A stretch of DNA of 30,974 nt from a virus: IMG/VR virus record IMGVR_UViG_3300042549_000412, positions 1 to 30,974 of that record; one strand, 5' to 3'. The notes under the pieces are model-generated. The model made no database searches and was not told the DNA's origin. It saw nothing but the letters and a program-made list of their open reading frames with translations. Below, piece by piece: positions 2,892 to 30,974 of this stretch. A program made the translations under genes and the position numbers. The stretch's first letter is position 1, and each line of letters starts with the position of its first letter.

Positions 2892-3575
2892 ATGTTAGTA
2901 TATATAGCAATAAATAAAATAAACAGTAAAAAATACATTGGCTATACCACCAAAGCATTACACGAAAGAATAAAAACTCATGTAATAAAGGCTTATAGTA
3001 AATCATCAAAACATTATGATTATAATTTTCAAAGAGCTATAAGAAAGTATTCTATAGATAGTTTTACATGGGAAGTATTATATAATTGTTGCAGTAAAGA
3101 AGAATGTATTCAAAAAGAAATTGAATGTATTAAGCACTATAATTCCATATCTCCTAATGGTTATAATTTAACTCATGGTGGGGAAGGTGGTGTACAATCA
3201 GAAGAAACTAAATTAAAGATTTCAAATTCTGTTAAAGAATATATTAGGTTAAATCCAGATAAGTACAATAGGATACTTAATATGACATCAGAATCCAGAA
3301 AAAATGTAGCTAAAAAAGCATGGGATACAAAAAGAAAAAATGGATATAAATATCCATCAGGGTTTAAAATAAGTGATTTGTCAAAACAAAAAATGAGTAT
3401 AACTAAAAATAATAAAAATAAATGTGGTTGGATAAATATTAATACTAATGAAATATTATATAAATCCTTAACCGATATGTCAAAATATACAGGTTTAAGT
3501 TCAGGCGTATTCAATCACCTTAAACAAGGAAGACAGCAAAAAACTAAATGTGGATGGATGTTTTATGTAAAATAA
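2892..3575 (+). CDS. Free-standing GIY-YIG homing endonuclease
   Basis: This 227-residue protein begins with a GIY-YIG nuclease domain (residues 1-95). YIAINKINSKKYIGYTT supplies the paired Tyr motifs, ALHERIKTH the catalytic Arg region, and IECIKHYNS the conserved Glu and following tyrosines. NGYNLTHGGEGG marks the domain end. Next come short NUMOD3-like DNA-binding repeats (EETKLKISNSVKEY; LSKQKMSITKN), then a C-terminal helix-turn-helix module of the IENR1 type (residues about 180-227, SLTDMSKYTGLSSGVFNHL). Such enzymes nick or cut DNA at intron-free sites and spread by repair of the break. It stands between two intact genes and has AT-rich flanks. The upstream 47 bases and downstream 33 bases hold no intron-like structure that I can see. 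It is probably a selfish insertion in the lysis-to-tail region. Confidence 0.9.
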   Translation: MLVYIAINKINSKKYIGYTTKALHERIKTHVIKAYSKSSKHYDYNFQRAIRKYSIDSFTWEVLYNCCSKEECIQKEIECIKHYNSISPNGYNLTHGGEGGVQSEETKLKISNSVKEYIRLNPDKYNRILNMTSESRKNVAKKAWDTKRKNGYKYPSGFKISDLSKQKMSITKNNKNKCGWININTNEILYKSLTDMSKYTGLSSGVFNHLKQGRQQKTKCGWMFYVK

Positions 3576-3596
3576 ATATATAATATTTTTTTTTAG

Positions 3597-3604
3597 TAAA
3601 TTTG
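3597..3604 (+). promoter_or_regulatory. Bacteroidota-type -7 box TAAATTTG before the lectin-like gene
   Basis: TAAATTTG matches the Bacteroidota -7 consensus TAnnTTTG exactly and lies only four bases before the ATG at 3609. A clear -33 TTG is not present at the normal spacing. If transcription starts about five bases after the box, the message would begin at or beside the start codon, giving a leaderless transcript. Confidence 0.5.
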
Positions 3605-3608
3605 TCTT

Positions 3609-4220
3609 ATGAAAGTAAATAATTATCCGTTAAAGACACCAGCTGCTGGAGATAGACTATTTGGTAGCGATTCAAATGGCGACCAGAAGCAGTTTGATAT
3701 GTCAGCTGTTAGTAATAACGTATTTCAATATGAGATAGGGGAATATGCTGCTGACCAAGGCGGTGTGATTTTTCATAGATATTTAGATGGAGACACTCAG
3801 AATTATTTAGTAGTTGGCTTGACTAACTTATCAACTTCTCAAGCATGGAGTAATGTTGCGTCTACTCTAATAGGTTCTACTGCTCAGAGTACTTGGGATG
3901 GATTATCTAATAGTAATGCAATAGTGACTCAAGTAGGGCAAACAAGTAGTGCTGCAAAATTATGTTTAGATTCAACCGATAATAGTCAAACAGATTGGTA
4001 TTTACCAGCTATTCAGGAGTTAAATTTATTATGGACTAATAGGTTTGATGTTGATAAATCTATAAGCTCTATTGTAGGCTCAACCGCTATGGGAACTGAT
4101 ACTTTCTGGAGTTCAACAGAAACAACAAGTACATTTGCAACAACTTTTAATATTCAATACGGAACATCTTTAAAAAACGCATCTAATTACGTAAGAGCTA
4201 TTAGGAAGTTTAGTATTTAA
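3609..4220 (+). CDS. Tail protein with DUF1566/C-type-lectin-like domain
   Basis: This protein has 203 residues. The N-terminal 30 residues (PLKTPAAGDRLFGSDSNGDQ) match the short attachment segment recalled at the start of many phage tail-fibre proteins. From about residue 45 the chain fits the DUF1566 (Lcl) fold: a GGVIFHRYLDGD strand near the start, an alpha/beta stretch rich in Ser, Thr and Gln, then the diagnostic TDWYLPAIQELNLLW, DTFWSSTET and YVRAIRKF motifs at the end. This fold is related to C-type lectin domains used as variable receptor binders. It is likely a host-contact protein at the virion surface, an inference from fold and N-terminus. A -7 box lies directly before it, so it may be expressed apart from the upstream homing endonuclease. 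No reverse transcriptase or template repeat is present nearby. Confidence 0.7.
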   Translation: MKVNNYPLKTPAAGDRLFGSDSNGDQKQFDMSAVSNNVFQYEIGEYAADQGGVIFHRYLDGDTQNYLVVGLTNLSTSQAWSNVASTLIGSTAQSTWDGLSNSNAIVTQVGQTSSAAKLCLDSTDNSQTDWYLPAIQELNLLWTNRFDVDKSISSIVGSTAMGTDTFWSSTETTSTFATTFNIQYGTSLKNASNYVRAIRKFSI

Positions 4221-4224
4221 TTAC

Positions 4225-4232
4225 TATATTTG
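4225..4232 (+). promoter_or_regulatory. Bacteroidota-type -7 box TATATTTG before 4250 gene
   Basis: TATATTTG matches TAnnTTTG and ends 17 bases before the ATG at 4250, leaving a leader of about a dozen bases. It lies right after the stop of the lectin-like gene and would drive the run of small genes leading to the terminase. No TTG -33 element is evident at standard spacing. Confidence 0.5.
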
Positions 4233-4249
4233 TTGTAAAATTAAATACA

Positions 4250-4486
4250 ATGAATAAAATTAAACAAGAAGAATTATCAAGATTAACGGAATTAAACCGT
4301 AATTTCAGAGACCTTAAATTTCAGGTAGCTGACATCGAACTATCATTCGATAGATTAAAAACCCAAAAAGTATCAACCATGGCAAACCTAGAGTTTGTCG
4401 TTCATGATATGGCTAAGTACCAAGAGGAACTTACTGCTAAATATGGTGATATAACTGTTAATCTTCAGACTGGTGAGTATAATTAG
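4250..4486 (+). CDS. 78-residue coiled-coil hypothetical protein
   Basis: The protein is almost entirely predicted helix with heptad-like hydrophobic spacing (LSRLTELNRNFRDLKFQVAD, then IELSFDRLKTQKV), and it ends in a short polar tail. There is no membrane segment or catalytic motif. It is the first gene after a promoter box and overlaps the next gene by 14 bases. Short coiled-coil proteins at this place, before the terminase genes, occur in related phages without known function. It may be an assembly factor, which is a guess. Confidence 0.6.
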   Translation: MNKIKQEELSRLTELNRNFRDLKFQVADIELSFDRLKTQKVSTMANLEFVVHDMAKYQEELTAKYGDITVNLQTGEYN

Positions 4487-4691
4487 AAAAATATCTGTCG
4501 GTCCTGACTACATGAAGAGTATGAATTATACTGTAGGTCAGGAAGTTCTTGATAAAACATATTGCATTTACCAGATTATTAAAAGTGATGAAGGTATAAA
4601 ACTTTATATTATTAAGGACGATGAAATTACGTTATGGAAAGAATTTTCTATAACCATGCCTATTTCTATTGAATTTAATATAAATTTTTAA
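4473..4691 (+). CDS. Conserved small crAss-like phage protein (GPDY..MNYxVGQ motif)
   Basis: This 72-residue protein starts with GTG at 4473. The motif IRKISVGPDYMKSMNYTVGQ at the N-terminus, followed by alternating strands (CIYQIIKSDEGIKLYIIKDD) and a C-terminal LWKEFSITMPISIEFNINF, is recalled from a small protein found before the terminase in many crAss-like genomes. The first part of that motif would be lost with the ATGs at 4512 or 4521, which is why the GTG is preferred. Function is unknown. The predicted structure is a small mainly beta fold. Its TAA overlaps the next ATG by one base. Confidence 0.65.
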   Translation: MSIIRKISVGPDYMKSMNYTVGQEVLDKTYCIYQIIKSDEGIKLYIIKDDEITLWKEFSITMPISIEFNINF

Positions 4692-5251
4692 TGTTTGCTC
4701 CAAACTATTTTATAGTTAAACCTGTTGACGGCAGGCGATACAATAATATCCGTAATTATGGTGGTGTTGAGTTTATTATAAGTACTTCTCAAGAAGACCA
4801 TACTGTATCTAATCGTTTTGCTGAGGTGGTGTCTTTACCAAGATACTATGTAGGTGATGTTAATGTTGGAGATATAGTTGTAGTTCATCACAACGTGTTT
4901 AAGTTTTATTACGACATGAAAGGAAACCAAAAGAGTAGCTGGCATCATTTATTTGATGATTACTTTATCTTGGAGGAAGCTCAGTTGTATCTATACAAAA
5001 CTTCTGACGATAAATGGACTGCTCCTTTCCCTTATTGTTTTGTTAGACCTATAAAGTCAGAGGAGAAGGTTATCAACACTTTAGGTAAGCATGAGGAGTT
5101 ATGGGGGGAATTGGTATTTAAGAATGGCAATATGGGTAATGTGAATGAAGGAGATGTAGTTTCTTTTACTCCAGATAGTGAATATGAATTCGATATTGAT
5201 GGTGAGATTTTATACAGAATGTACGATAGAAATATATGTCTAAAAAGGTAG
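4691..5251 (+). CDS. Possible tandem GroES (Cpn10)-like protein
   Basis: The 186 residues seem to form two copies of one beta-barrel pattern. Copy one (about 4-100) has NYFIVKPVDG, a mobile-loop-like stretch (GGVEFIISTSQEDHTVSNRF), AEVVSL and then VGDVNVGDIVVVHH. Copy two (about 112-186) has YCFVRPIKS, LWGELVFKNG and GNVNEGDVVSFTP, ending in YDRNICLKR. The order I-V-K-P, G-E-V-V, V-G-D-I-V and a closing strand is that of GroES-type co-chaperonins, which cap the GroEL chamber; phage T4 gp31 is a phage example that helps fold the capsid protein. Its place just before terminase, portal and capsid genes fits such a role, but the GroES match is by eye and distant. It could equally be another small barrel protein. 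The gene overlaps the next one by 16 bases. Confidence 0.45.
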   Translation: MFAPNYFIVKPVDGRRYNNIRNYGGVEFIISTSQEDHTVSNRFAEVVSLPRYYVGDVNVGDIVVVHHNVFKFYYDMKGNQKSSWHHLFDDYFILEEAQLYLYKTSDDKWTAPFPYCFVRPIKSEEKVINTLGKHEELWGELVFKNGNMGNVNEGDVVSFTPDSEYEFDIDGEILYRMYDRNICLKR

Positions 5252-5505
5252 AAATATTAGAGGCTGCAAAGGTAGCTATTGATGAATTGATAAAGGTATT
5301 AAGAGAACCTATTATTACTCACATGGAGGATGACATCTCAGCTGATAAGTTAAAGAATGCTGCATCTGCTAAGCGTTTAGCTTTTGACGATGCATTAAAT
5401 ATGTTGGCTAAGATAGAGGAAGAGGAAAATAGAGCTAATAATACTTCTACGGAGGTTATGGCTGGCACAGGTGGCTTTGCTGAGGGTAGAGCTAAAAAAA
5501 AGTAA
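5236..5505 (+). CDS. Terminase-adjacent small protein (possible small terminase subunit)
   Basis: This 89-residue protein is largely helical: residues 1-25 (KKVEILEAAKVAIDELIKVL), a short linker, then DDISADKLKNAASAKRLAFD continuing into a helix ending in KIEEEE, and a disordered tail ending in GGFAEGRAKKK. Proteins of this size and pattern directly before the large terminase gene are recalled from crAss-like phages. A small terminase (DNA recognition for packaging) is the obvious candidate from position, but no helix-turn-helix is clear. The start overlaps the previous gene by 16 bases and the terminase follows after 25 bases. Confidence 0.55.
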   Translation: MSKKVEILEAAKVAIDELIKVLREPIITHMEDDISADKLKNAASAKRLAFDDALNMLAKIEEEENRANNTSTEVMAGTGGFAEGRAKKK

Positions 5506-5530
5506 ATACTTTTTACAAAATCATATATAA

Positions 5531-7753
5531 ATGGAAAATAGTCTTTACAAACTTATTACAAACCATATACATAAATCAGCACTTACCACCAAGAATTCAA
5601 AAAAGTCGTGGACTTATGGTTATCATTCTGAGTACGATTTAGTTGTTATATCAAAGGATGGAACTATAGGTGATATATATGATATAAATGGAGTCAAGGT
5701 TGCATTACCAGCAACTCCAAAAAAAATAGAAATCACTAACAATAGATGGGTTGCAACTGATTATCCACAAGAGCTGCAAAAGATAAAAAGCATATTCGAT
5801 TGGAATAGAAGAGACAATTCATTTAAGTCTAAATATGTTGATTATATTGAGACTGAATTTGATAGACGTGACAATGGTTATTGGTTCATGAATAATGGAG
5901 TTCCTACTTATATCACTGGAACTCATTATATGTACTTGCAATGGACTAAGATTGATATTGGTCTACCAGACTTTAGAGAATCCAATAGAGTTTTTTATAT
6001 ATATTGGGAGGCATGTAAGGCTGACAATAGGTCGTTTGGGATGTGCTATCTAAAGAATAGACGTTCTGGGTTTTCATTTATGTCTTCAGGTGAGGTGTCT
6101 AATACTGGTACTATAGTTCGTGACTCCAGGATAGGTATATTATCTAAGACAGGTCCAGATGCAAAGAAGATGTTTACAGATAAGGTAGTGCCTATTGTTC
6201 GGAATTATCCTTTCTTTTTTAAACCAATACAAGATGGGATGGACAATCCTAAGACTGAGTTGGCGTTTCGTGTGCCTGCTAGTAAGATTACTAGAAAGAA
6301 CATGGATGAAGAAAAGAATGATGAGATTGACGGACTAGATACTACTATTGACTGGAAGAATACAGCTGATAACAGTTATGATGGTGAGAAGTTATTGTTG
6401 CTTGTTCAAGATGAAGCAGGGAAATGGACGAAGCCAGAGAATATTTTAAATAACTGGCGTGTAACTAAAACTTGTTTACGTTTAGGTAGTAGGATAGTAG
6501 GTAAGTGTATGATGGGTTCAACCTCAAATGCATTATCCAAAGGTGGTGACAATTTCAAGCACTTATACAACGATAGTAACCCTAGGAATCGTTCTGCTAA
6601 CGGTCAAACTAAAAGTGGATTATATTCTTTATTTATTCCTATGGAGTGGAATATAGAGGGTTATTTAGATGAGTTTGGTCATCCTGTTTTCGCAGATCCT
6701 AAAAAGCCTATTATTGGCATTGATAGGGAAAAAATAAATCAAGGTGTAATTACTTGGTGGAATAACGAGGTTGCTGCATTAAAGTCTGATTCTGATGCCT
6801 TGAATGAATTCTACCGTCAGTTTCCTAGAACTGAATCTCACGCATTTAGAGATGAATCGAAGCAATCTGTGTTCAACTTAACAAAGATATATCAGCAGAT
6901 TGACTATAATGATTCTTTAATAAAGGATCATGTATTAACTAGGGGTCATTTTCATTGGAAGAACGGCAAGAAAGATACTGAGGTTATTTGGACTCCAGAC
7001 GCAAAGGGTAGGTTTTTGGTTTCTTGGATTCCAGATAGTAAAATGAGAAATAATGTAATAGATAGAAATGGTAAGAAATTTCCTGGTAATGCTGAGTTGG
7101 GTGCTTTTGGTTGTGACCCTTATGATATTTCAGGTGTTGTTGGTGGCGGTGGTTCAAACGGTGCTTTGCATGGAAAGACTAAATTCCATTTATCAAAAGA
7201 TGCTCCAATTAATGAGTTCTTTCTTGAGTACATAGCAAGACCACAAACGGCAGAGATATTCTTTGAAGACGTTCTAATGGCTTGTATATTTTACGGTATG
7301 CCTATATTAGCAGAGAACAATAAGGCTAGATTACTTTATCACTTTAAGGATAGAGGATACAGAGCCTTTTCTTTAAATAGACCAGACAAAGACAAAAGTA
7401 AGCTATCTAAGACGGAGCTAGAGTTAGGTGGGATACCTAATACATCTGAAGATGTAAAACAAGCTCATGCCTCATCTATAGAGACTTACATTGAGGAATA
7501 CGTTGGTCTTGATACCGAGGGAACTTATAGGGATTCCGATATTATGGGGTCTATGTATTTTACTAAGACATTAGAGGACTGGGCTAAATTTGACCCTAAC
7601 AATAGAACAAAGCATGATGCTTCCATTAGTTCTGGATTAGCTATTATGGCTACTAGAAAGTATTCTTTTGAAACAGAGAAGAAAGAATCGAAAATAAGTA
7701 TTAAATTTGTAAGATACGATAATAGTGGAACAAGGAGCACAATAATAAAATAA
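5531..7753 (+). CDS. terL: Terminase large subunit
   Basis: The 740-residue protein is the ATP-driven packaging motor and headful nuclease. In the ATPase domain the Walker-A-like loop is NRRSGFS (residues 176-182, without the classical GK[ST]), as in crAss-like terminases. The Walker B strand is LLLLVQDEAGK with Asp294-Glu295. The RNase H-like nuclease domain shows FGCDPYDISG (Asp529), AENNKARLLYHF (Glu595) and TKHDASISSGLAIMAT (Asp696), the expected three acidic metal ligands. The length is normal for the family. An N-terminal region of about 150 residues with GTHYMYLQWTKI precedes the motor. The TAA overlaps the portal ATG by one base, so motor and portal are coupled. Confidence 0.95.
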   Translation: MENSLYKLITNHIHKSALTTKNSKKSWTYGYHSEYDLVVISKDGTIGDIYDINGVKVALPATPKKIEITNNRWVATDYPQELQKIKSIFDWNRRDNSFKSKYVDYIETEFDRRDNGYWFMNNGVPTYITGTHYMYLQWTKIDIGLPDFRESNRVFYIYWEACKADNRSFGMCYLKNRRSGFSFMSSGEVSNTGTIVRDSRIGILSKTGPDAKKMFTDKVVPIVRNYPFFFKPIQDGMDNPKTELAFRVPASKITRKNMDEEKNDEIDGLDTTIDWKNTADNSYDGEKLLLLVQDEAGKWTKPENILNNWRVTKTCLRLGSRIVGKCMMGSTSNALSKGGDNFKHLYNDSNPRNRSANGQTKSGLYSLFIPMEWNIEGYLDEFGHPVFADPKKPIIGIDREKINQGVITWWNNEVAALKSDSDALNEFYRQFPRTESHAFRDESKQSVFNLTKIYQQIDYNDSLIKDHVLTRGHFHWKNGKKDTEVIWTPDAKGRFLVSWIPDSKMRNNVIDRNGKKFPGNAELGAFGCDPYDISGVVGGGGSNGALHGKTKFHLSKDAPINEFFLEYIARPQTAEIFFEDVLMACIFYGMPILAENNKARLLYHFKDRGYRAFSLNRPDKDKSKLSKTELELGGIPNTSEDVKQAHASSIETYIEEYVGLDTEGTYRDSDIMGSMYFTKTLEDWAKFDPNNRTKHDASISSGLAIMATRKYSFETEKKESKISIKFVRYDNSGTRSTIIK

Positions 7754-18800: not shown

Positions 18801-19829
18801 GATGGAGCACCAACCCCAGGTAATGTGTTCTACCAATCATGGGAGAAAGACCAATCAAGTACTGATAATTTAATTGTAGAGTTGAACAACATAACTTCAG
18901 ATAACTCAGACTTTAATTCTTTTGCTTTCGGGAATGGTGTTGAGTCATATAGAATTTATGATAACTTCTTGAGACCTACAATGAAATATAGCCCTAGAGC
19001 TAGCAGTGTTATAGAGGATTATCAGCAGCAAAATAAATATGCATCACTTTGCTATAGTGGTATATATAAAGGAGACACATCAACAAATAGATTGAACTCT
19101 TTTAATTTATCTCAAGCTAATTTTAAGAATTTAGATATAAAGTATGGTCCTATTGAGAAGATTTTTGCTAGAGACACTGATTTATTGGTGTTACACCAAG
19201 ACAAAATAACTAAAGTTCTTTATGGTAAAAATTTATTGGTTGATGCCGTAGGTGGTGGTCAAGTTGCCTCCGTTCCAGAGGTCCTAGGTAATCAAATTGC
19301 TCATCCATCTGAATATGGTATTAGTAATAATCCAGAGAGTTTCGCTAAGCACGCTAACATTTTATTTTTCTCAGATGCTAGAAGAGGTGCTGTATTGCAA
19401 ATGCTAGGAGATGAGGTAGTTGAAATATCTGATAGTGGTATGCGAAACTACTTTAGGGATATAATGAAAGATAATCCAAACACACAAAAGCTAGGTTGTT
19501 TTGACCCTTTTAATAATACTTATGTAATTGCGTTTAACGATCAAAATGTAGTCCCTTGTTCTTTACAAATATCGCCTATTAAACTATCTTTAAATAAAGA
19601 CGCAAAGGGATTGTTATTATTCAGTATAGTATCTAATGGACCTTGGTCTATTTCTTATTCTTCTGACTGGCTCTATATAAACACCACTTCAGGATTTGGG
19701 AATCAAAATATATTTGGTTCGGTTACTGAAAATGACACTGAAGACATAAGGACAGAGAACGTTGAAATTTCTTACTGTGATGGTAGTGCTAGTTTAGAAT
19801 TTTTATTAACTCAAACAACAAAAGATTAA
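15888..19829 (+). CDS. Muzzle / tail stabilization protein with C-terminal BACON domain
   Basis: The 1313-residue protein opens with FIAGKMNKDIDERLVPEGEY, then DALNVTID, the classic signature of crAss-like stabilization proteins, distant relatives of the P22 gp4/gp10 tail region. A long beta-rich body follows, including a propeller-like repeat with TDEYGRMTSVL near residue 385, an inserted region around 540-900 rich in Asn, Ser and Pro, and then the conserved block LNSFNLSQANFKNLDIKYGP, with LLVLHQDKITKVLYGKNLL and FDPFNNTYVIAFND up to residue about 1218. From about 1225 to the end the sequence fits a BACON domain: SPIKLSL, SNGPWSISYSSDWLYINTTS (Trp1253 and Trp1261), G.G...I..SVTEN and a final LLTQTT. 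BACON domains are small Ig-like modules thought to bind glycans or mucin. The usual continuation of the family (GW.SF.SYEPD.M..LNN.FYTFKNG) is missing here and found in the next gene. Confidence 0.88.
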   Translation: MIKIDKTFIAGKMNKDIDERLVPEGEYLDALNVTIDTTRGSTIGSVQNSPGNEVVSDIDILTGITATNSTTIGSISYEPSNLIYWFVTCDEYDAIFEYNQVTDITERVILSTTNQLSFNRNYAITGVDYIPGLAGDGPFLYWTDNVNPPRRINIARAKSYSDDDSRIDLDINVILAPPLYAPKIKLHFEESIDVSNNIEDKFIYFSYRYKYHDNQYSALSPFSAVAFHANSFLYDYLTGDNKGMLNKFNMVDVTFDTGNEFVEEIQVLYFDTYKLNVYIIENYNKEELTIQDDFKYSITFSANKIYTPIESSEVTKLFDNVPLLARTQDIVGNRLIYGNYTQFRDIVDSNLQNIVPNYTLALESTAITTQPKKTFRSDRDYEVGIIYTDEYGRMTSVLTSKNNELYIPSTNSDTANSIRLELTNNPPFWATNYRFAIKQAQGDYYNIFPRTFAVDGLFRYFLINEADRDKITIGGYVIFKTSNGLATHSNKQFKVLELEYKPVSTVFIIEGLYFKIKSDPADVFLDSPTITTRSDSGSGRGINSSGFSPTNPVRNRGSIVNFEYAYYANNGDNTLENPNQNNSGSVTADYNGPISNNDIDYRISVQILNPANPSSNTGTHFRWTYRLNGTNYSSPIAISNFVDITVFPPFTDDFRLYFDTSSNYNVGDLHIINVRGAIRDVLLTPRFSSTVYSRFVSVFERGLFPYNSTTGAIGGYEGHAILLYNEPIYPGAVININILRDVSPDSSSPNRAINNTWTSNDYYKNIEEWFWQSGAYNSFQYIANDYTTQTSPINIIFRRADVPPGKQSTVAPYVTQYIDEDTDVNSGRLCLLIRGVGDYDGSSPNEILAELKVTQTPTVRLTAETVPLNVDIDIFYEMRKTYAIKNGYHTTSWRYADYTSAGGTFAGKTVLGPVNPSIPVSTDLMHSFNVGERVWVQNSDTIIPIVGPISDYYDILAVTEYSITIDLTFPGDGAPTPGNVFYQSWEKDQSSTDNLIVELNNITSDNSDFNSFAFGNGVESYRIYDNFLRPTMKYSPRASSVIEDYQQQNKYASLCYSGIYKGDTSTNRLNSFNLSQANFKNLDIKYGPIEKIFARDTDLLVLHQDKITKVLYGKNLLVDAVGGGQVASVPEVLGNQIAHPSEYGISNNPESFAKHANILFFSDARRGAVLQMLGDEVVEISDSGMRNYFRDIMKDNPNTQKLGCFDPFNNTYVIAFNDQNVVPCSLQISPIKLSLNKDAKGLLLFSIVSNGPWSISYSSDWLYINTTSGFGNQNIFGSVTENDTEDIRTENVEISYCDGSASLEFLLTQTTKD

Positions 19830-19830
19830 T

Positions 19831-20808
19831 ATGTGTGATTGTATAAAAGTTACCTATGAAATAAACGGTGTAACGTCTACTATTGAAGTAAATAGTCCAT
19901 TTGAGTTTGTAGTTGGTGAGCAAGAGTTTTCTATTAATCTCGTTGATGGCGTATGGGAATTAGATGCAGGTAATACAACTATTGGAACTATTGACACACC
20001 TGATTGTCCACTGGGAGATTTCGACCTAAATGAAGATTCTACTTTCTCTATGTTCTCAGTTGGTAAATGCGATGATGATTATAAAACAGTAACATATTCT
20101 ACAGTTAGTCAAGGTTGGAATTCATTTTGGTCATACGAGCCTGATTGGATGATTGAGCTAAACAATGTTTTTTATACATTTAAGAATGGTAATATATGGA
20201 GGCAAAATACTAATACAACAAGGAATAACTTTTATGAAACTCAATACACCTCCAAAGTTAAAACAATATTCAATAATAGCCCATTAGAGAATAAGGTGTT
20301 TAAGTCTATATCCATTAATAGTACTAAACCTTGGTCTGTTGTTATTGATACCAACTTAGAGACATCGAATACGCCAAGTGTTTATTTCGTTGAGAAAGAA
20401 GGTTTTTGGTTTTCATACATAAGAAGACAAGACAATACTATTGCTGTTAAAGCTTTATCTACTCAAGGTGTTGGGAATGTACTGTCAGTAACATCTCCTA
20501 ATATATTAAATTTTTCTTTTAATTTAGACCTATCATCTATAAGTATTGGCGATAAGTTATATAAGAATAACTTAGGGTCTTTAATGTACTTAGGCGAGAT
20601 AATAGATATATCTTTAAATAACATAACTATAGATATAACTTTTGGAGGCACTCCTTCTGTTGGTGACTTCATTATTTGTGTTAAAAATTCACAAGTAGAG
20701 TCTTACGGAGCAAGAGGTGTATATATGAATATAGAATTAGAGAGCGATAGTACTGAAGAACTAGAATTATTTTCAATAAGTTCTACAGTATTCAAAAGTT
20801 TTCAGTAA
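19831..20808 (+). CDS. Second muzzle-type protein (split-off C-terminal part)
   Basis: This 325-residue protein starts one base after the muzzle gene. Residues about 1-85 form a Cys-containing beta region (MCDCIKVTYEING near the start, DTPDCPLGDFDL and FSMFSVGKC at 55-80) of unknown fold. Residues 86-205 contain SQGWNSFWSYEPDWMIELNN, then VFYTFKNGNIWRQN and PLENKVFKSISINSTKPWSV, which I recall as the C-terminal block of crAss-like stabilization/muzzle proteins in one chain. The remainder is beta-rich (GDKLYKNN, FGGTPSVGDFIIC). It therefore probably assembles with the upstream protein in the muzzle. The split is clean: stop, one base, ATG, no frameshift signature. Confidence 0.65.
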   Translation: MCDCIKVTYEINGVTSTIEVNSPFEFVVGEQEFSINLVDGVWELDAGNTTIGTIDTPDCPLGDFDLNEDSTFSMFSVGKCDDDYKTVTYSTVSQGWNSFWSYEPDWMIELNNVFYTFKNGNIWRQNTNTTRNNFYETQYTSKVKTIFNNSPLENKVFKSISINSTKPWSVVIDTNLETSNTPSVYFVEKEGFWFSYIRRQDNTIAVKALSTQGVGNVLSVTSPNILNFSFNLDLSSISIGDKLYKNNLGSLMYLGEIIDISLNNITIDITFGGTPSVGDFIICVKNSQVESYGARGVYMNIELESDSTEELELFSISSTVFKSFQ

Positions 20809-20813
20809 ATTTG
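20806..20813 (+). promoter_or_regulatory. -7 box TAAATTTG before the GNAT-like gene
   Basis: TAAATTTG matches TAnnTTTG, begins at the last bases of the preceding gene and ends three bases before the ATG at 20817. The context AGTAAATTTG just before an ATG is the same as at 3595-3604. A transcript started here would be leaderless or nearly so. Confidence 0.4.
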
Positions 20814-20816
20814 CGT

Positions 20817-21218
20817 ATGGAAGTTAGATTCTTGAAAGAGAACGATTACGATACGTTATCTAAATGGTGGAAGGACTGGAGATGGACACCTCCCCCAGCT
20901 GATATGTTGCCTCAGAACGGTATAGGCGGAGTAATGGTTTATAAAGGAGATACTGAGATATGTGCTGGCTTTGTTTACTTTACGAACTCTAAAACTGCAT
21001 GGATAGAATTCATAGTATCTAATTTCCAATATAAAGATAAAGATAGACACGAAGCTATAGAGATGCTTATAAATGTGCTTACTAAGATGGTTCAAGATAT
21101 GGGCGAATATAAGTATATTTATACATCACTAAAAAGCAAAAGTCTAATTGATAGATATGCTAATTGTGGATACCAGCTTGGTAGCACTAATTGCAACGAA
21201 ATGATTAAAGTATTATAA
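20817..21218 (+). CDS. GNAT-like acetyltransferase-fold protein
   Basis: This 133-residue protein starts at ATG 20817; a TTG at 20811 in frame would add only two residues and overlap the promoter box. The chain follows the GNAT order: strand and helix MEVRFLKENDYDTLSKWWKD, the strand pair GGVMVYKGDTEICAGFVYFT, the long strand TAWIEFIVSNFQYKDKDRHE which leads into the acetyl-CoA pyrophosphate loop and helix (EAIEMLINVLTKMVQDM), then YIYTSLKSKSLIDRYANCGY. The usual Q/RxxGxG/A loop is reduced to KDKDRHEA, so activity is uncertain. A very similar protein is recalled from crAss-like genomes at this place among tail genes. It may modify a virion or host protein, or have lost catalysis and be structural. 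Confidence 0.65.
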   Translation: MEVRFLKENDYDTLSKWWKDWRWTPPPADMLPQNGIGGVMVYKGDTEICAGFVYFTNSKTAWIEFIVSNFQYKDKDRHEAIEMLINVLTKMVQDMGEYKYIYTSLKSKSLIDRYANCGYQLGSTNCNEMIKVL

Positions 21219-23313: not shown

Positions 23314-26300
23314 ATGAACGATAAACTACAACAACTTTACGATTTATACAAATCAAAGGGAATTATTAACACAGTTGATTTTAACACATTCTCTACATCT
23401 GATGATAGTCAGAGACAAAAATTATATGATTTAGGTAGGAAAAATGGATTATTTAAAACGACTGATTACGGAGTTTTTAGTTCGGTATTTACACCTGTAA
23501 AAAAAAAAGAGGTTTCACAATCAACACAAAGAGAAGAAGATATTTCATCGGCTACATCAAAGATGGCTCAAAATCAGCATTTGGTATCTTCTGCTCCAAA
23601 AGATGAAAATGTATATACAGGATTTCCTGGGAAAGAGAGCAAAAAATATAAGCTAGACCAATCTACTGGAGTAGAAGTTTGGAAAGAATATAGCTCTACT
23701 AATTACAATCAGAAAACAGGTAAACAAGAAGATGTATTTGATAAAACAATTACAGACCCATCAAGAGTGAATGCGCTTAATAAGCAATTCAACGCTAAAG
23801 CATCTACTAATGAAGTAGAAAAAGTTTTTGTTGGTTATCCTGGTAAAGAAAAAAATGAGTATAGAGTAAAGGATAATTTATGGCAAAGAAAAGAGAAAGG
23901 TCAAAGTGATTGGACAACAATTACTAATGAAGGTTCTATAAAAGCATTAAATTATGAATTTGGTAAAACTATAAATGTGCTTGCTCCTGAAGAGGCATTA
24001 AGAATATCTAAAAATGAATCATCTTTATCAAAAATAAATAATACAATAAATAAAGACTTAATTGGTCAAGACGAAGAAGATGCTATATCTAAAATAAATA
24101 AAGCAATAAAAAGTTATGATTACCTTGAGGCTGAGCAAATTGGTGCTGGTTATGATGCTATAAGAGTAAAAAATAAAGTGACTGGGGAATACAAAGACAT
24201 TAGCCTTGATAACTGGTCTTCAGATAGAGATAAGGAAGAGTCAGAAATACTCAAAGGATTCTTGTCTGTAAATATCGGCAACAGTGAATACACTGAAAAA
24301 TACAAGAAAATACAAGACTTAGAAAACAAAATAAAAACTGCTCAACCTTACAAAGTTCCTCTTATTCAGAAAGAAATAAATGAAGCCAGAGAAGAACTTA
24401 AAGACATAGATAGAAAAAGAAAGAACGATTCAAGAGAGAATAAATATAAAGCAACAGCTGTATTTGATAAGTATGCTGTTGATGACATTAATCTAAATAT
24501 ATCTAAGACTATTGTAAAAACAGAGGACCTGAAAAAGAAAGCGGCTGAGTTTTCTGAATATGCGAATACAGTAAATGAAGCCTATAGAAATGGTAAGATA
24601 ACTGAAGAGGATTATAAAAATAACTATGCTGTAGTTATCGAGAATAATAAAAAAGAAATTTCATCAGAAATAAATGCTATCAAGCAAGACTACAATGATG
24701 TAAAGAAAGACTCTATTTTAGTTGACGATATAGCTGGATATAATTACAAGGTAGAGTCTCAAAGAGGTAACGTTTTAACTGGTACTACATCTGCATTTCT
24801 AAGAGGATTTGAAGGCGCTACTAGATTTGCTCTTGAAGGTATATCTGAAGAAGCAGGCGGATTAAAAGAAGGTTCGTTTCAAGGCGTAATGTCTGAGCAA
24901 TTAGCACCATCAACTGTAAGTTCTATATACACATCTTCAGAAGGTAAGAACACATTTGAACAGATTGTATTTGGTCTTGCTGAGTCTGGCGGTGCGGCTA
25001 TGGCTGGAGTATTAACAGGTGGTCCTCAAGGGGGTGTATTTGGCTTATATGCATCTAGTTATGTTCAGTTGAAAGACCAAATGAATACACCTGAGTTTCA
25101 GGATGTTCCAGAGTATCAGAAGGTTTTATTGTCAGGTGTATATGGTGCTTCTGTGGCGTTGCTAGAAAAGTACGGTATAACAAAAGGCTTTAGTAAAAAT
25201 CCAGTTGGTAAGAGGTTCTTAAATTCTTTCTTATCTAAAATGGTGAAAGAGCTTCCTTCTGATGCAACAGCTGAAGTTATTGAGGCTTATGTAAATAAAA
25301 ATGTCAAAACTCTTATTGCTAAAAAAGCAATAAATTTAACAGGTGCTGGTCTTATTGAGTATTCAACTGAGGCTGGACAAGAGGCTACTGATATTGGATT
25401 AAAGTCTTTATTTAACGGATTACAAGGTAAAAAGTATTTTGAAACTCCTGAGACATGGGGTGAGGTATTTTCTCAAATCAATGAGGCTGGTAAATTAGGG
25501 TTTATAGGTGGTGCTGGAATGCAGTCAACAAGTATAGCTTTGAACACAACTAAAGACGCTCTAACTAAATACCAATTAAATAACATAGAGAACACTATCA
25601 ATAATGAGGACATTAAAAATATATATGTACTAAACATTAAAGATAGAATATTATCTGGAGAGATTACTAAAGCTCAAGGACAAAAGGAACTCAACAAATT
25701 AAAAGAGTCTGAGGGTTTATTGAATAAAATACCAGTAAACATAACTGGTGATAGTAGATATGAGGCATTTCAATTAATAAATGAAAGAGACGAGCTTCAG
25801 AAAGCAACAGAAGGTAAAGAGGCAGCTTTAATTACTCCTATTACAGATAGAATTACAGAGATTAATAACAGATTAAAAACAATAAGTAAAAATGCCGTTC
25901 AAGTCGAAACAACAGGTGAAGTTCCTGTACAGCCAGAAGCCAGAGTTGGCGAAGAAGTGGTCCAAGGAGAATCCAAAACAGAACCTCAAAGCATTACCGA
26001 AGAAGGTCAAAAAGAAGTAGAGACATTAAGAGCTAAAGAGATTGCTGAATTTAAGGAAGAGATAGATAATGCAGATGACTTCATTACAGATGGCAAGATA
26101 GATGCAAAAAAAATAGAGGCTTCTGATAATTTAAAAGCCAAAGAGATTTACGCTAAGTACGACAAACTAATTAGTCCTTTATTGAAGCCTACCGAAATAA
26201 CAATAGATAAACCAGTCATTGCATCAAATGCTGCTGTTGAAGTAGATAGAGTAAAAGCTCTTCCTATTGAGTCAGAAGACGGAGCTACATTTAATCTTGA

Positions 26301-29300
26301 CGGAGCTAAATACGAAGGGGTTGGATTGGTTGTTCCAGTTGATAGCATGAATACAACAATAGAAGAATTAACCCCAGAGATGGTAGCTGATTTTGTTGAA
26401 GAACGTCAGAAGATGATTGGCGATACTGGGGTTGTAAAGGCTGGTATATATAAATTCCCTAATAGCAATCAAGTGTCAATAGACTTGAGTATAGTAGTTC
26501 CTGAATCATCAAGAGAACAAGCTATTGAATTCGGAAGACTTTCCGATCAAGAGTCTTTATTTGATTTAGCTACATTTGAAAATGTAAAAACTGGTGGTAC
26601 TGGAAATAACCCAATGAAATTTACTCCAGAGCAGCATAGGGAAATAGCGAAAGCATTAAAAGAGGGTAGAGTTCCAAATGTATTTTCAGAACAAGATAAA
26701 CGGACAGAATCCGATCAAGATAACTTAATTACGCAAGATAACTTTGAAGCACAGAGAGCTAAACAAACCACAACTGTAGGACAAAAAATAGTTACAGCTG
26801 CTAAGTTAGTTATGAAGGCATTACCTAGTGTTAAGATATATGTTCATCAAACAACGGCTGACTTTGAGATTGGTATTGGAGAGAAATCTGAAGAAAACGA
26901 TAGAGGTGCTTACATTAATGGAGAAATTCATATCAACCTAGAGAATGGTGCTAATTTGGCGACACTATATCACGAAGCAATCCACCACGCATTAGAAGTT
27001 AAAGGAATGCAGTCAGGTGCGATACTTGATCTTGCCAAAGGATTAAGAGCTATTGTATCTGGTAAATACACTAAACAATACTTAGATAACTTCATTAGTA
27101 ATTATGACGAGAATGCTCAAGCTGAAGAATATATAGCTGAGCTTGGAGCTATAATGGCTGAAGACAAGATGGAGCTGACTGCATCTAAGTTTATACAGTT
27201 TAAGGCGTTGCTTGGTAAGATAGCTAAAAAGCTTGGCATACCTGCATTTAGTGATGCAATGCAAGCTAAAGATGCTGCTGACTTTATTAATAACCTTACT
27301 AAAGCTATACGTACTGGTGAGGAGATTAAGACTGAAGGATTTCAATCAGAAATAATTAAGCCTAAAGAAATTAAAAAACAGGTAAAGGTTCGTGATAATT
27401 ATAAGTTATCATTTGTAAAACAATCTGATATTATTGATATTGATTCACTTATAAAAGAAATAGCTAATAAAGGTCAAAAGGTTTGGTTCTGGATGGCAGA
27501 TCAGTTAGGAATAGGTTATGTTTATGATGAAGTATCTGGAGAAAACAATTACTTAGATGCTGGACCTTCTTTTGCTTTAGATCCTGAGAATAGAAGCGAG
27601 CGAATAGTATGGGCTTCAGGGTTGAAAAAGAAAACTCTTAAACGTTTAATAGATAATTCTGACTATATATTCTTAGTAAGTGGATCTCCAGATACAGCTA
27701 AATTATTTAATAAAGCAGTGTTTGATTTATATGTTAAAAAAATAGGCGACTATAATTCATTTAAGAAAGAGGTGTTAAACAACACTCCAACTAAAGGAAT
27801 AAAAGAAGTTTTAGAAAAGTATAATTCATGGGAGGAAATAAAAGAAAGTGGTGACAGAAAAAAAATACTTTCTGAATTTAACAACTCATTTAATAAACCT
27901 AATGGTAAGCTAAATAAAATACTATCAAGCAAGAATGCACTTATTGATGTAAATTCAATTAAGGATGATTTTTACTCTGAAAATAACTTTCAGCAGAATG
28001 ATATTATGATGGTTTTAAAACCAGAAAAAATAGGAGGAAAGTCAAAGCATTCTACGTATGAAAATGATCTTATTGGAGATGTAGTAGGAGTTCCTGATAA
28101 GATAATAAATGCTTATGATATTTTATCAGATGAGGATAAATCAAGATATAAGGATGTATCTAATTCAGACAGAGTAAAACAGCAAGCTGTCACTGCGCCA
28201 TTCGGAAAAGGAATTAGAAGCGTTATTAAAAAACAAATGATATCACCTGAGAATTCATCCAACTATGCCAATTTAACTGAAGATGATAAAGGTAATTTTG
28301 TATTTTTCCATATAGGTGAAAAAAATTATGATGTAATAAAAACAAGTTCTGGAGCTAGCCTAAAAACAAGTTTAACAGAAGGATCTGCCATAGGAAGAGT
28401 TGGCGGTGTTGCAATGTATTACACTAGACCATCTGATGGTGAAAGAATGGTTACTAGTCCATCAAGATATATTGTAAAAATACCAAAAAATGAAGTTTAT
28501 GATTTCAATTCAGATCCATTAAAATTAATAGATGAAGCAGAAAAAAGATTTAATGAGGAATTTTCTGGATTAGCATTTACACCTAATGACCAATTAGCTT
28601 ATATAACTAAAATAGCAGATGAGAATGGTTATGGTATGACAGTTGCACAATGGGGAGATAGAACAAGGGCGCAGACAGTTCAAGAATACAAACCTGATGA
28701 TGTTGAAATTTCAGAAGGTAGTAGAATTGTAAAACCATTTGATGAAAAACATATAAGCAATACTGAAAAAGGATTTGTATCTGTTATACCTGAATCAAAA
28801 AGTAAAAAAATCAATGATTTATATGATAAGATTTATAAAATAAGAAATTCTGAAGGAAAATATGATGATCTATATAGAATTCAAGAAGAGTCAAGCAAAA
28901 TGACTCAAGATCAGATAACTGATATGATAATGAATTCAGATTTACCTAAAAGTGTTAAAGATGAATATCAAGAAATATTATCTTATAAACCTGAGAAAAG
29001 AAGATCTATTAAAAAGCAGAAAGCTCCATCAGTTGGTAAAGTATTAGGTAAGCCAAAAGCAAAACAGGTTTCAGTTAATGAGATGTCAGCATTGAAGGAC
29101 CAAATTAGATTGGAAGCTCGTGCTGCTCGTGATGCAAAAGGAGATTTGAATACTAAACGTAAAATGCTGGCTGCTGCCATTAGTAATATGGTTAAGCTTG
29201 GTAAAATAAAAGCATCTCAAGCTGGTGTATTAATCAAGAGGATTAGTAGTATAAACTTAGACAATCCTGTAATTGTAGATAGATTTGCTAACTATGCTGA

Positions 29301-30974
29301 GAAAGTATTTAACAGAGCTGACTATCAGAAAAGATTGGATGATGCATTTGCATTAAGAAAAAGTATCCGAAAATTATTGAATACTGAAAACCAAGCTGAG
29401 GTTGTTGGTATGGCTAAAGAATTTGCCAATATTGACCCATCATTAGTTGAAGACATTGATGCCTATATTGAGATGGCTGAGAAAGTTAAAAATGCCGTTA
29501 AACCGTCAAGAATAAAAGGCTTTGACGTAATAATGAAGGAAGCGGCAAATATCGCTATGGTATCTGAATTCTCAAAAGCCGAACTAGAAAGACAAGAGGA
29601 TATAAAAAAGCAAGAATTACTGGCTATACATGACTATTTAAAAGATATATCAAAAGACATGTCTTTAAAAGAGATTCAAGATATAATCAATCTGCTAAAA
29701 GAAAACTCAGAAGAAACTGCCGATAAAGAAGGTAAAGTAATGGAGTTCTTGAAAAATAGATTCGACTTTATGTCTGGTATAATCGACACAATGATTAATA
29801 CAGGTGTTGACCCTATGACTGGTGAGGATATTCAATTTGATGAAAAGCAAAATAGCTTAATGAAAAAAGTTCTAAAGATTGACTTGAATCAGATGTCAAT
29901 TAGAGAAGCTATTAAGATTGTTGAGAGTGTAAATAACTTTCTGACTAACCAAATAACTAGTGGTCTTGAAGCAGCTGTAAACTCTTACGAAGGTGCTACA
30001 AACGCACAAAGCTTAGTAGATAATGGTACTAAAGCAAAAGATGTATCACTATTCTTTTCTAAAAAAGCAGGTCAAGCATATACCAATCAATTGTTCTCAT
30101 TACCATTGTTAATGGAGAGAATGTTCAATGGAACGAAAGCTGCATTGAATATAATGACTGAAATGGGATTAAACACCGTCATTAATGGAGTGAATTTAGC
30201 GAACAAGCTACACGATAATATCATAACATCATACTCAAAAGAAGCGTTCTATGGTAAGAAAGGATTCATGGACCAGAAGAATGTTTTTGAGAGAGGAATG
30301 TTAGCTTTCTTAAAAAGAAACCTTACTGGTAGCGAAACAATGGTAAAAGCAGAATTCGAGAGAAGAGCTAGAATCATTGAGCAAAGTATTGAATCATTAA
30401 AAAATTCTGGAGACAAAAAGCTAGTTGAGTTAGGTGAAGCATACCAAGAGGTATATGACAAATTAGGAGTTGCTAAAAAAGACCTTGATGTAATTAATTC
30501 AAGAGCTGAATCAATGAATAAAGAAGCTGTCGATTGGTGGATTAAAGAATGGTCGAAGCACTACAAAGATTTATCAGATGTAAGTTTATCAGTATATAAC
30601 GCTATGTTAGGTAGTGATACAAACTATACACCTGATAAATTTAAAAAAATAGTACAGACAAGTGGAGTGATTGAAGACGCTGACAGTATCGGTGGGATTG
30701 ACTATACAGACAAGAACAAGACAGGAGTATTGATAGAGTCATCCAGACCAAATAATGCGCCTTCAGGCAGATATATTAGTCTTGATTTTGATAGTAATAA
30801 TTCAAACGCATTGAAGGGTGCATTGGTTGACATTAACACAGCAGCTGGAATTAGACAAGTAGATGGGTTTATGAGTTCAAAAGCATTTAACTCATTAGTT
30901 CCTAATGCTAAAGATAGAGCATACTTAGTTGAGCGCATTAATAACTATATAAGACGTGCTAAAGGAAAGAGGAT
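23314..30974 (+). CDS. Giant multidomain virion protein with zincin domain (partial, open at the window edge)
   Basis: An uninterrupted frame of at least 2553 codons starts at ATG 23314, nine bases after the previous stop, and runs past the edge. Parts in order: two 20-residue repeats at 8-27 and 37-56 (LYDLYKSKGIINTVDFNTFS and LYDLGRKNGLFKTTDYGVFS); a diverged pair at 100-159 and 171-216 sharing GFPGKE/GYPGKE; charged helices; a Gly/Ala-rich hydrophobic stretch at 548-589; a region at 990-1122 with FNLDGAKYEGVGLVVPVDSM and GGTGN that resembles a domain of polyvalent proteins; a zincin at about 1165-1280 with YHEAIHH (His1220, Glu1221, His1224) and EEYIAELGA as source of the third ligand; a 250-residue domain from 1390 (KVWFWMADQLGIGY, GPSFALDPENR); a possible ADP-ribosyltransferase-like region at 1660-1800 (FFHIG, YYTRPSDGE, IPKNEVYDFNSDPL); and long helices from 1919 on. 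Size and order fit a head-packed, ejected protein that may open the cell wall or act on host proteins. No RNA polymerase active-site motif was found in this part. Confidence 0.75.
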   Translation, partial: MNDKLQQLYDLYKSKGIINTVDFNTFSTSDDSQRQKLYDLGRKNGLFKTTDYGVFSSVFTPVKKKEVSQSTQREEDISSATSKMAQNQHLVSSAPKDENVYTGFPGKESKKYKLDQSTGVEVWKEYSSTNYNQKTGKQEDVFDKTITDPSRVNALNKQFNAKASTNEVEKVFVGYPGKEKNEYRVKDNLWQRKEKGQSDWTTITNEGSIKALNYEFGKTINVLAPEEALRISKNESSLSKINNTINKDLIGQDEEDAISKINKAIKSYDYLEAEQIGAGYDAIRVKNKVTGEYKDISLDNWSSDRDKEESEILKGFLSVNIGNSEYTEKYKKIQDLENKIKTAQPYKVPLIQKEINEAREELKDIDRKRKNDSRENKYKATAVFDKYAVDDINLNISKTIVKTEDLKKKAAEFSEYANTVNEAYRNGKITEEDYKNNYAVVIENNKKEISSEINAIKQDYNDVKKDSILVDDIAGYNYKVESQRGNVLTGTTSAFLRGFEGATRFALEGISEEAGGLKEGSFQGVMSEQLAPSTVSSIYTSSEGKNTFEQIVFGLAESGGAAMAGVLTGGPQGGVFGLYASSYVQLKDQMNTPEFQDVPEYQKVLLSGVYGASVALLEKYGITKGFSKNPVGKRFLNSFLSKMVKELPSDATAEVIEAYVNKNVKTLIAKKAINLTGAGLIEYSTEAGQEATDIGLKSLFNGLQGKKYFETPETWGEVFSQINEAGKLGFIGGAGMQSTSIALNTTKDALTKYQLNNIENTINNEDIKNIYVLNIKDRILSGEITKAQGQKELNKLKESEGLLNKIPVNITGDSRYEAFQLINERDELQKATEGKEAALITPITDRITEINNRLKTISKNAVQVETTGEVPVQPEARVGEEVVQGESKTEPQSITEEGQKEVETLRAKEIAEFKEEIDNADDFITDGKIDAKKIEASDNLKAKEIYAKYDKLISPLLKPTEITIDKPVIASNAAVEVDRVKALPIESEDGATFNLDGAKYEGVGLVVPVDSMNTTIEELTPEMVADFVEERQKMIGDTGVVKAGIYKFPNSNQVSIDLSIVVPESSREQAIEFGRLSDQESLFDLATFENVKTGGTGNNPMKFTPEQHREIAKALKEGRVPNVFSEQDKRTESDQDNLITQDNFEAQRAKQTTTVGQKIVTAAKLVMKALPSVKIYVHQTTADFEIGIGEKSEENDRGAYINGEIHINLENGANLATLYHEAIHHALEVKGMQSGAILDLAKGLRAIVSGKYTKQYLDNFISNYDENAQAEEYIAELGAIMAEDKMELTASKFIQFKALLGKIAKKLGIPAFSDAMQAKDAADFINNLTKAIRTGEEIKTEGFQSEIIKPKEIKKQVKVRDNYKLSFVKQSDIIDIDSLIKEIANKGQKVWFWMADQLGIGYVYDEVSGENNYLDAGPSFALDPENRSERIVWASGLKKKTLKRLIDNSDYIFLVSGSPDTAKLFNKAVFDLYVKKIGDYNSFKKEVLNNTPTKGIKEVLEKYNSWEEIKESGDRKKILSEFNNSFNKPNGKLNKILSSKNALIDVNSIKDDFYSENNFQQNDIMMVLKPEKIGGKSKHSTYENDLIGDVVGVPDKIINAYDILSDEDKSRYKDVSNSDRVKQQAVTAPFGKGIRSVIKKQMISPENSSNYANLTEDDKGNFVFFHIGEKNYDVIKTSSGASLKTSLTEGSAIGRVGGVAMYYTRPSDGERMVTSPSRYIVKIPKNEVYDFNSDPLKLIDEAEKRFNEEFSGLAFTPNDQLAYITKIADENGYGMTVAQWGDRTRAQTVQEYKPDDVEISEGSRIVKPFDEKHISNTEKGFVSVIPESKSKKINDLYDKIYKIRNSEGKYDDLYRIQEESSKMTQDQITDMIMNSDLPKSVKDEYQEILSYKPEKRRSIKKQKAPSVGKVLGKPKAKQVSVNEMSALKDQIRLEARAARDAKGDLNTKRKMLAAAISNMVKLGKIKASQAGVLIKRISSINLDNPVIVDRFANYAEKVFNRADYQKRLDDAFALRKSIRKLLNTENQAEVVGMAKEFANIDPSLVEDIDAYIEMAEKVKNAVKPSRIKGFDVIMKEAANIAMVSEFSKAELERQEDIKKQELLAIHDYLKDISKDMSLKEIQDIINLLKENSEETADKEGKVMEFLKNRFDFMSGIIDTMINTGVDPMTGEDIQFDEKQNSLMKKVLKIDLNQMSIREAIKIVESVNNFLTNQITSGLEAAVNSYEGATNAQSLVDNGTKAKDVSLFFSKKAGQAYTNQLFSLPLLMERMFNGTKAALNIMTEMGLNTVINGVNLANKLHDNIITSYSKEAFYGKKGFMDQKNVFERGMLAFLKRNLTGSETMVKAEFERRARIIEQSIESLKNSGDKKLVELGEAYQEVYDKLGVAKKDLDVINSRAESMNKEAVDWWIKEWSKHYKDLSDVSLSVYNAMLGSDTNYTPDKFKKIVQTSGVIEDADSIGGIDYTDKNKTGVLIESSRPNNAPSGRYISLDFDSNNSNALKGALVDINTAAGIRQVDGFMSSKAFNSLVPNAKDRAYLVERINNYIRRAKGKR

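Follow-up and report, generated by a model that had tools for sequence, protein, structure and literature searches.

In crAss-like phages, the muzzle is thought to act as the gate for ejection, sensing the cell surface and opening. In crAss001, the muzzle protein gp44 is one 1371-residue chain (PDB 7qok and 7qol; PMC10172136), with the distal part, i.e., IG2 and the crass fold, occupying residues 318-1021; that paper describes insertions for the crass and IG2 domains, and not for the position discussed below. We analyzed a window of 30,974 bases, the whole length of a virus record, in which both halves of gp44 have counterparts that match in sequence, fold, and order of parts, but in two ORFs, here called chains A and B. 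Relatives of this locus occur in Cellulophaga, Flavobacterium, Tenacibaculum, and Maribacter phages and in many metagenomic contigs, with none found in host genome contigs. Among these, the Cellulophaga phages phi18:3 (gp114 and gp115), phi46:3, phi13:2, and phi19:3 have a two-gene muzzle with the same break point as the window. Unlike the window protein, chain A of phi46:3 carries a different Ig-like domain and an adhesin base with no BACON domain, as do the homologous ORFs of the other three phages, and chain B of all four lacks N85, the N-terminal domain found in the window. The two gene products are annotated there only as "structural protein", and public phage records list chain B as an unrelated structural or hypothetical protein, an annotation that is corrected here. 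No description of the split was found in the literature, for which open papers were covered.

The two ORFs (P0001 and P0002) lie at the positions given in a preliminary description of this DNA, separated by a stop codon, one base, and a start codon (Table 1). Chain A contains the N-terminal part, the IG/crass region, the propeller up to the break, and a C-terminal BACON domain; chain B contains N85, the resumed muzzle sequence, and a small beta-barrel followed by the final muzzle strands.

Table 1. Features of the two-gene muzzle locus, with positions in the window
Feature	Position	Strand	Basis
Muzzle chain A gene (P0001), 1313 aa	15888..19829	+	PF25731 1.2e-11; phrog_14478 2e-200; gp44 mapping; 7qol_P fold match
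BACON domain, chain A residues 1225-1313	19560..19826	+	PF19190 27.6 bits when scanned alone; 3zmr Z 12.6
Stop/start junction TAA-T-ATG	19827..19833	+	Single T between the ORFs
Muzzle chain B gene (P0002), 325 aa	19831..20808	+	PF25729 3.3e-15; predicted model of residues 95-322 vs 7qol_P, Z 9.1
N85, Cys-containing N-terminal domain, chain B residues 1-85	19831..20085	+	Clade-specific; all-beta model
Resumed muzzle sequence, chain B residues 86-200	20086..20430	+	gp44 1202-1290 plus MUZ_C
Small beta-barrel, chain B residues 205-286	20443..20688	+	Several unrelated small barrels matched, Z 6-7.6

A small acetyltransferase-like gene (phrog_17252; 20811-21218) directly follows chain B, and a homologue is present in 62 of the retrieved loci. 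Elsewhere in the window, a GIY-YIG homing-type endonuclease with a weak NUMOD3 motif (2892-3575) adjoins the lysis amidase gene (2069-2716), and an ORF of over 2553 aa (23314-30974), open at the window end, carries a zinc-protease-like HEAIHH motif; its product, which had no match in Pfam or NCBIfam, is perhaps an ejected cargo protein.

Chain A matched the Pfam model crAss_MUZ (PF25731) with 43.9 bits, and chain B matched crAss_MUZ_C (PF25729) over residues 130-200 with 56.7 bits, each above the cut-off of 27. A direct sequence search of the PDB returned no match, whereas profile and fold comparisons succeeded. A profile of the chain A family, built from relatives, mapped to residues 28-160 and 1050-1167 of crAss001 gp44, and the corresponding chain B profile, taken from residue 85, mapped to gp44 1202-1290 (1.8e-15). 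Residues 1003-1219 of the predicted chain A model aligned to 7qol_P with a Z score of 11.0, the aligned range ending at gp44 1200, and the chain B model matched the same structure chain; a BFVD search with the chain B model returned crAss "stabilization proteins". Muzzle sequence resumes in the second protein at residues 86-200, corresponding to gp44 1202-1290 and PF25729. Altogether, one crAss-like muzzle protein is divided between the two ORFs, its front part in chain A and its back part in chain B: both families are recognized, and colinearity and fold agree with gp44, yet the protein is encoded in two ORFs in different frames and not as a single polypeptide. The proposal that the muzzle is encoded as two chains and was ancestrally one chain is borne out, the muzzles of crAss001 and phi38:1 being single chains. 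The phrog_14478 profile (1474 positions) ends in the Ig-like and adhesin-base extension of phi46:3-like phages and leaves chain B to other families, so the split is hidden in automatic annotation.

On gp44, the front side ends at residue 1200 and the back side starts at 1202, with two residues (HC) between them in the stretch NNNDVYFTYKDHCLCYSELINQFTSF; the equivalent gap is five or six residues in phi38:1, Maribacter phage Panino, L052, and L004. Strands are predicted at the break in chain A at residues 1199-1206 and 1211-1220, and the partner side in chain B, residues 83-107, has low model confidence when modeled alone. From these models we infer that the break would fall at a turn joining two strands of a single propeller blade. 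Because gp44 1200-1202 lies outside the IG2/crass segment, the break is on the propeller side and not at the crass tip, and the earlier suggestion of a module exposed at the tail tip is not supported.

The stop at the junction is not a sequencing error, because independent contigs with 44-73% identity show the same stop/start arrangement. Where the two genes are adjacent, chain B starts -1 to +27 bases from the chain A stop, apart from a single TTG call at -7. Of 33 such stops, 31 are TAA; frame offsets of 0, 1, and 2 all occur, and in 26 records the frame of chain B is closed where chain A stops. Such varying and closed frames exclude a conserved frameshift or read-through, and the junction layout fits ordinary coupled translation of two proteins. 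It is extremely improbable that the ORFs are nevertheless joined into one chain, whether through a frameshift, read-through of the stop, or splicing of an intron or intein: in the window the chain B frame does open 20 bases upstream of the chain A stop, and read-through in late genes of crAss-like phages is known, but besides the frame data, up to 3.8 kb of other genes separate the halves in a dozen records and the window has no Rfam match. Frameshifting and read-through were rejected on the missing conserved frame relation and the frames closed at the stop; an intron or intein was rejected on the lack of an Rfam match in the window, the single base between the ORFs, and the lack of a Pfam intein domain.

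At this junction, 109 of the 126 contigs that contain both sides are split and the other 17 are intact; removal of near-copies left 73 non-redundant relatives (59 split and 14 intact rows), plus the intact gp44. Panino (L003) was counted as intact at the studied junction only; its muzzle (3001-6914) lies in two ORFs broken further upstream, either at a second break point or by a frameshift in the record. Chain A extends 6 to 991 residues beyond the muzzle core, and 0 to about 3.8 kb of DNA lies between the halves. The tree requires four changes between split and intact states, or three with the longest branches omitted; its root is unsure, and the gp44 branch is very long. Because a tree uniting the intact rows in one clade is not rejected (p-AU 0.07), we make no claim about the number of split or re-fusion events. 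The window clade has support of 100/100, and its grouping with the L027 sister clade has support of 99/89. On the tree, the two-chain state precedes the window clade, and it did not arise newly in this phage.

In agreement with the preliminary description, chain A ends in a true BACON domain (residues 1225-1313). The PF19190 model scored 22.3 bits on the whole protein, below its cut-off of 25, which was passed when the 104-residue region was scanned alone (Table 1). The best structural match was the BACON domain of BoGH5A (3zmr), at 1.8 Å over 87 residues with 25% identity, compared to Z scores of 9-11 for other Ig-like folds. Of 47 homologous domains, 21 match PF13004 and 13 match PF19190 at E ≤ 0.01, that of L136 passing both models, and the family has a conserved Cys pair. 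A BACON domain occupies the same chain A position in about 80 contigs, which are partly redundant. The 3zmr domain, the sole BACON with both a structure and binding tests, bound no substrate tried and is regarded as a linker according to two papers; accordingly, glycan binding cannot be assumed, and of the "glycan-binding module" proposed earlier the BACON fold stands while the binding does not find support.

N85, at the other side of the break, is a new Cys-containing region as first described, with conserved Cys residues and an all-beta model (pLDDT about 91 for residues 1-80); tandem copies occur in L015, L017, L026, and L041. It matched no known family, and the BFVD search with the chain B model gave nothing informative on it. 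Sought in other genes, it was present in chain B of the window clade alone, the matches in L009 and L075 coming from that same gene in broken or duplicated form. Mean identity is 0.43 for BACON and 0.45 for N85, compared to 0.84 and 0.75 for the two core sides of the junction, a faster divergence that would be expected of exposed or weakly constrained parts.

The preliminary description held that a BACON domain had inserted into an intact muzzle in this lineage, breaking the chain, and that the tail tip now displays it as a glycan-binding module. The BACON domain is real and sits exactly at the break, and intact muzzles are known; nonetheless, close relatives all carry the same two-gene arrangement, an outcome that the preliminary description had itself listed among its refuting conditions, far lineages are also split, and on the tree the split predates the window clade. 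Other domains or none are found at the break in split muzzles without BACON (L040, phi46:3, L049, and L069), with chain A of L040 ending six residues past the core. In the sister clade, BACON and a stop are already in place, and other genes spanning 3.5 kb come before chain B. Together with the position outside the crass tip domain and the non-binding behavior of the tested BACON, these data make the insertion account highly unlikely and largely refute it.

Most split muzzles carry a further conserved domain of about 120 residues, the adhesin base, first seen at the start of an intervening gene in L027 and its kin. When fused to chain A, it lies about 125-190 residues past the core; in separate genes, it occupies residues 11-145. 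Of the 59 split rows, 45 have this domain, and all 15 intact ones (14 phages and gp44) lack it. The other 14 split rows comprise the window clade, with 11 rows, and the clade of L157, L163, and L184, which has BACON after the core. Supported independent contrasts linking the split with the adhesin number only three (p = 0.25). Fused (L136) and separate (L119) adhesins are homologous, with 37% identity over 655 aa (2e-116). The protein is named adhesin for its position and modular architecture, with predicted Ig, cadherin-like, and Big_9 domains and Thr-rich linkers, and its host-binding role is predicted from these features only.

In the L027 clade, the order is core-BACON-stop, adhesin, a conserved gene of about 305 aa (phrog_4417), and chain B, and both the adhesin base and the 305-aa gene are present in all three genomes of this sister clade tested. 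Because the window itself is a 31-kb fragment, absence was judged on near-complete contigs: neither feature was found throughout seven 60-63 kb genomes of the window clade. Relocation of the adhesin elsewhere in the genome was rejected on the same seven genomes. Loss of the intervening genes is the simplest reading, and the muzzle of the window was most likely split before its adhesin was lost, the direction of change being inferred. It is possible, though unlikely, that the window clade never had an adhesin, a BACON-only split having come early and adhesins having been added later elsewhere, once or several times; the uncertain root and the adhesin-less, BACON-bearing clade of L157, L163, and L184 point that way. 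However, nearly all other split lineages, on both sides of the window clade in the tree, have a homologous adhesin base at the same place, so that several independent gains at one site would be needed.

Several other features of the intervening DNA were observed. The adhesin-like genes of L027 (8948-12510), L028, L033, L036, L114, L119, and L130 encode proteins of 850-961 aa that contain runs of 6-24 Thr residues, and the phrog_4417 gene that directly follows them encodes a protein that looks glycosyltransferase-like by eye only and could modify the adhesin Thr linkers. In L069 (8511-10478) and its kin, the chain A extension carries a von Willebrand-A-like metal-site motif (FDASGSMD) with no Pfam match. 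A second family of intervening genes, in L148, L182, L153, L132, and L185, begins with YLNG..L..ATA...D...A.DG.Y, varies in length from 167 to 588 aa, and has no family match; it is another candidate receptor-binding cassette.

Our preferred reading, to which we assign a probability of roughly three in four, is that the muzzle is made of two chains, that the break serves as a dock for modules, and that the window clade lost the adhesin, kept BACON, and gained N85. Chain A would supply the N-terminal part, the IG/crass region, and most of the propeller, and chain B the remaining propeller and the C-terminal parts; the two polypeptides would form one muzzle subunit, meeting at gp44 1200/1202 and completing the propeller in trans. 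This trans assembly rests on colinearity and on the annotation of one relative, phi18:3, in whose record gp114 and gp115 both carry an annotation from experimental MS/MS of virions. The insert at the blade turn would have consisted of an Ig-like or BACON domain followed by an adhesin, with the chain becoming split at this insert or past it; the adhesin would have stayed fused to chain A in some lineages and been freed as its own gene by a second break in others. In the window clade, the adhesin and the adjoining gene of about 305 aa would have been lost, BACON remaining as a spacer or residual dock, and a new Cys-containing domain would be borne on the other new end, that of chain B.

Alternatively, chain B may no longer complete the muzzle and instead act as a separate tail protein or chaperone, as might be suggested by the separate N-terminal domain that it carries in the window clade and by its distance of up to 3.8 kb in relatives. 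We consider this very improbable: chain B holds sequence needed for the gp44 fold, of which no second intact copy was found in the window, its propeller-side residues are conserved (0.75), and its phi18:3 homologue is a virion protein according to the MS/MS annotation.

A conserved natural break with adhesins placed at it suggests how host recognition could be wired to the muzzle gate, and intact muzzles, split muzzles with or without an adhesin, and split muzzles without BACON are natural variants for testing it. We give even odds to the broader view that a large group of flavobacterial phages has a previously undescribed architecture, a two-chain propeller broken within a blade, with the break as a hot spot where receptor-binding modules are inserted, swapped, freed as genes, or lost with the ring undisturbed, and with the window clade as a stripped form that has BACON on one new end and a new domain on the other.

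Compared to known systems, the BACON domain shares its fold with that of the Bacteroides ovatus GH5 xyloglucanase (3zmr), which is N-terminal in a cell-surface enzyme, whereas here it is C-terminal on a tail protein and belongs to a family with a conserved Cys pair. In crAssphage, gp64 (PMC6949934) is likewise a viral BACON protein encoded near tail genes, but it consists of eight tandem repeats in a separate protein, in contrast to the single domain fused to the muzzle here. The nozzle of phage SU10 (PMC9509320) is a hexameric propeller carrying fibers, and chain A residues 1003-1221 align to its residues 537-800 with a Z score of 8.9. SU10 docks its short tail fibers on a loop (Trp 839-857) of one chain, whereas in phages of the window type the chain itself is broken, with the module lying within the new end or coded beside it.
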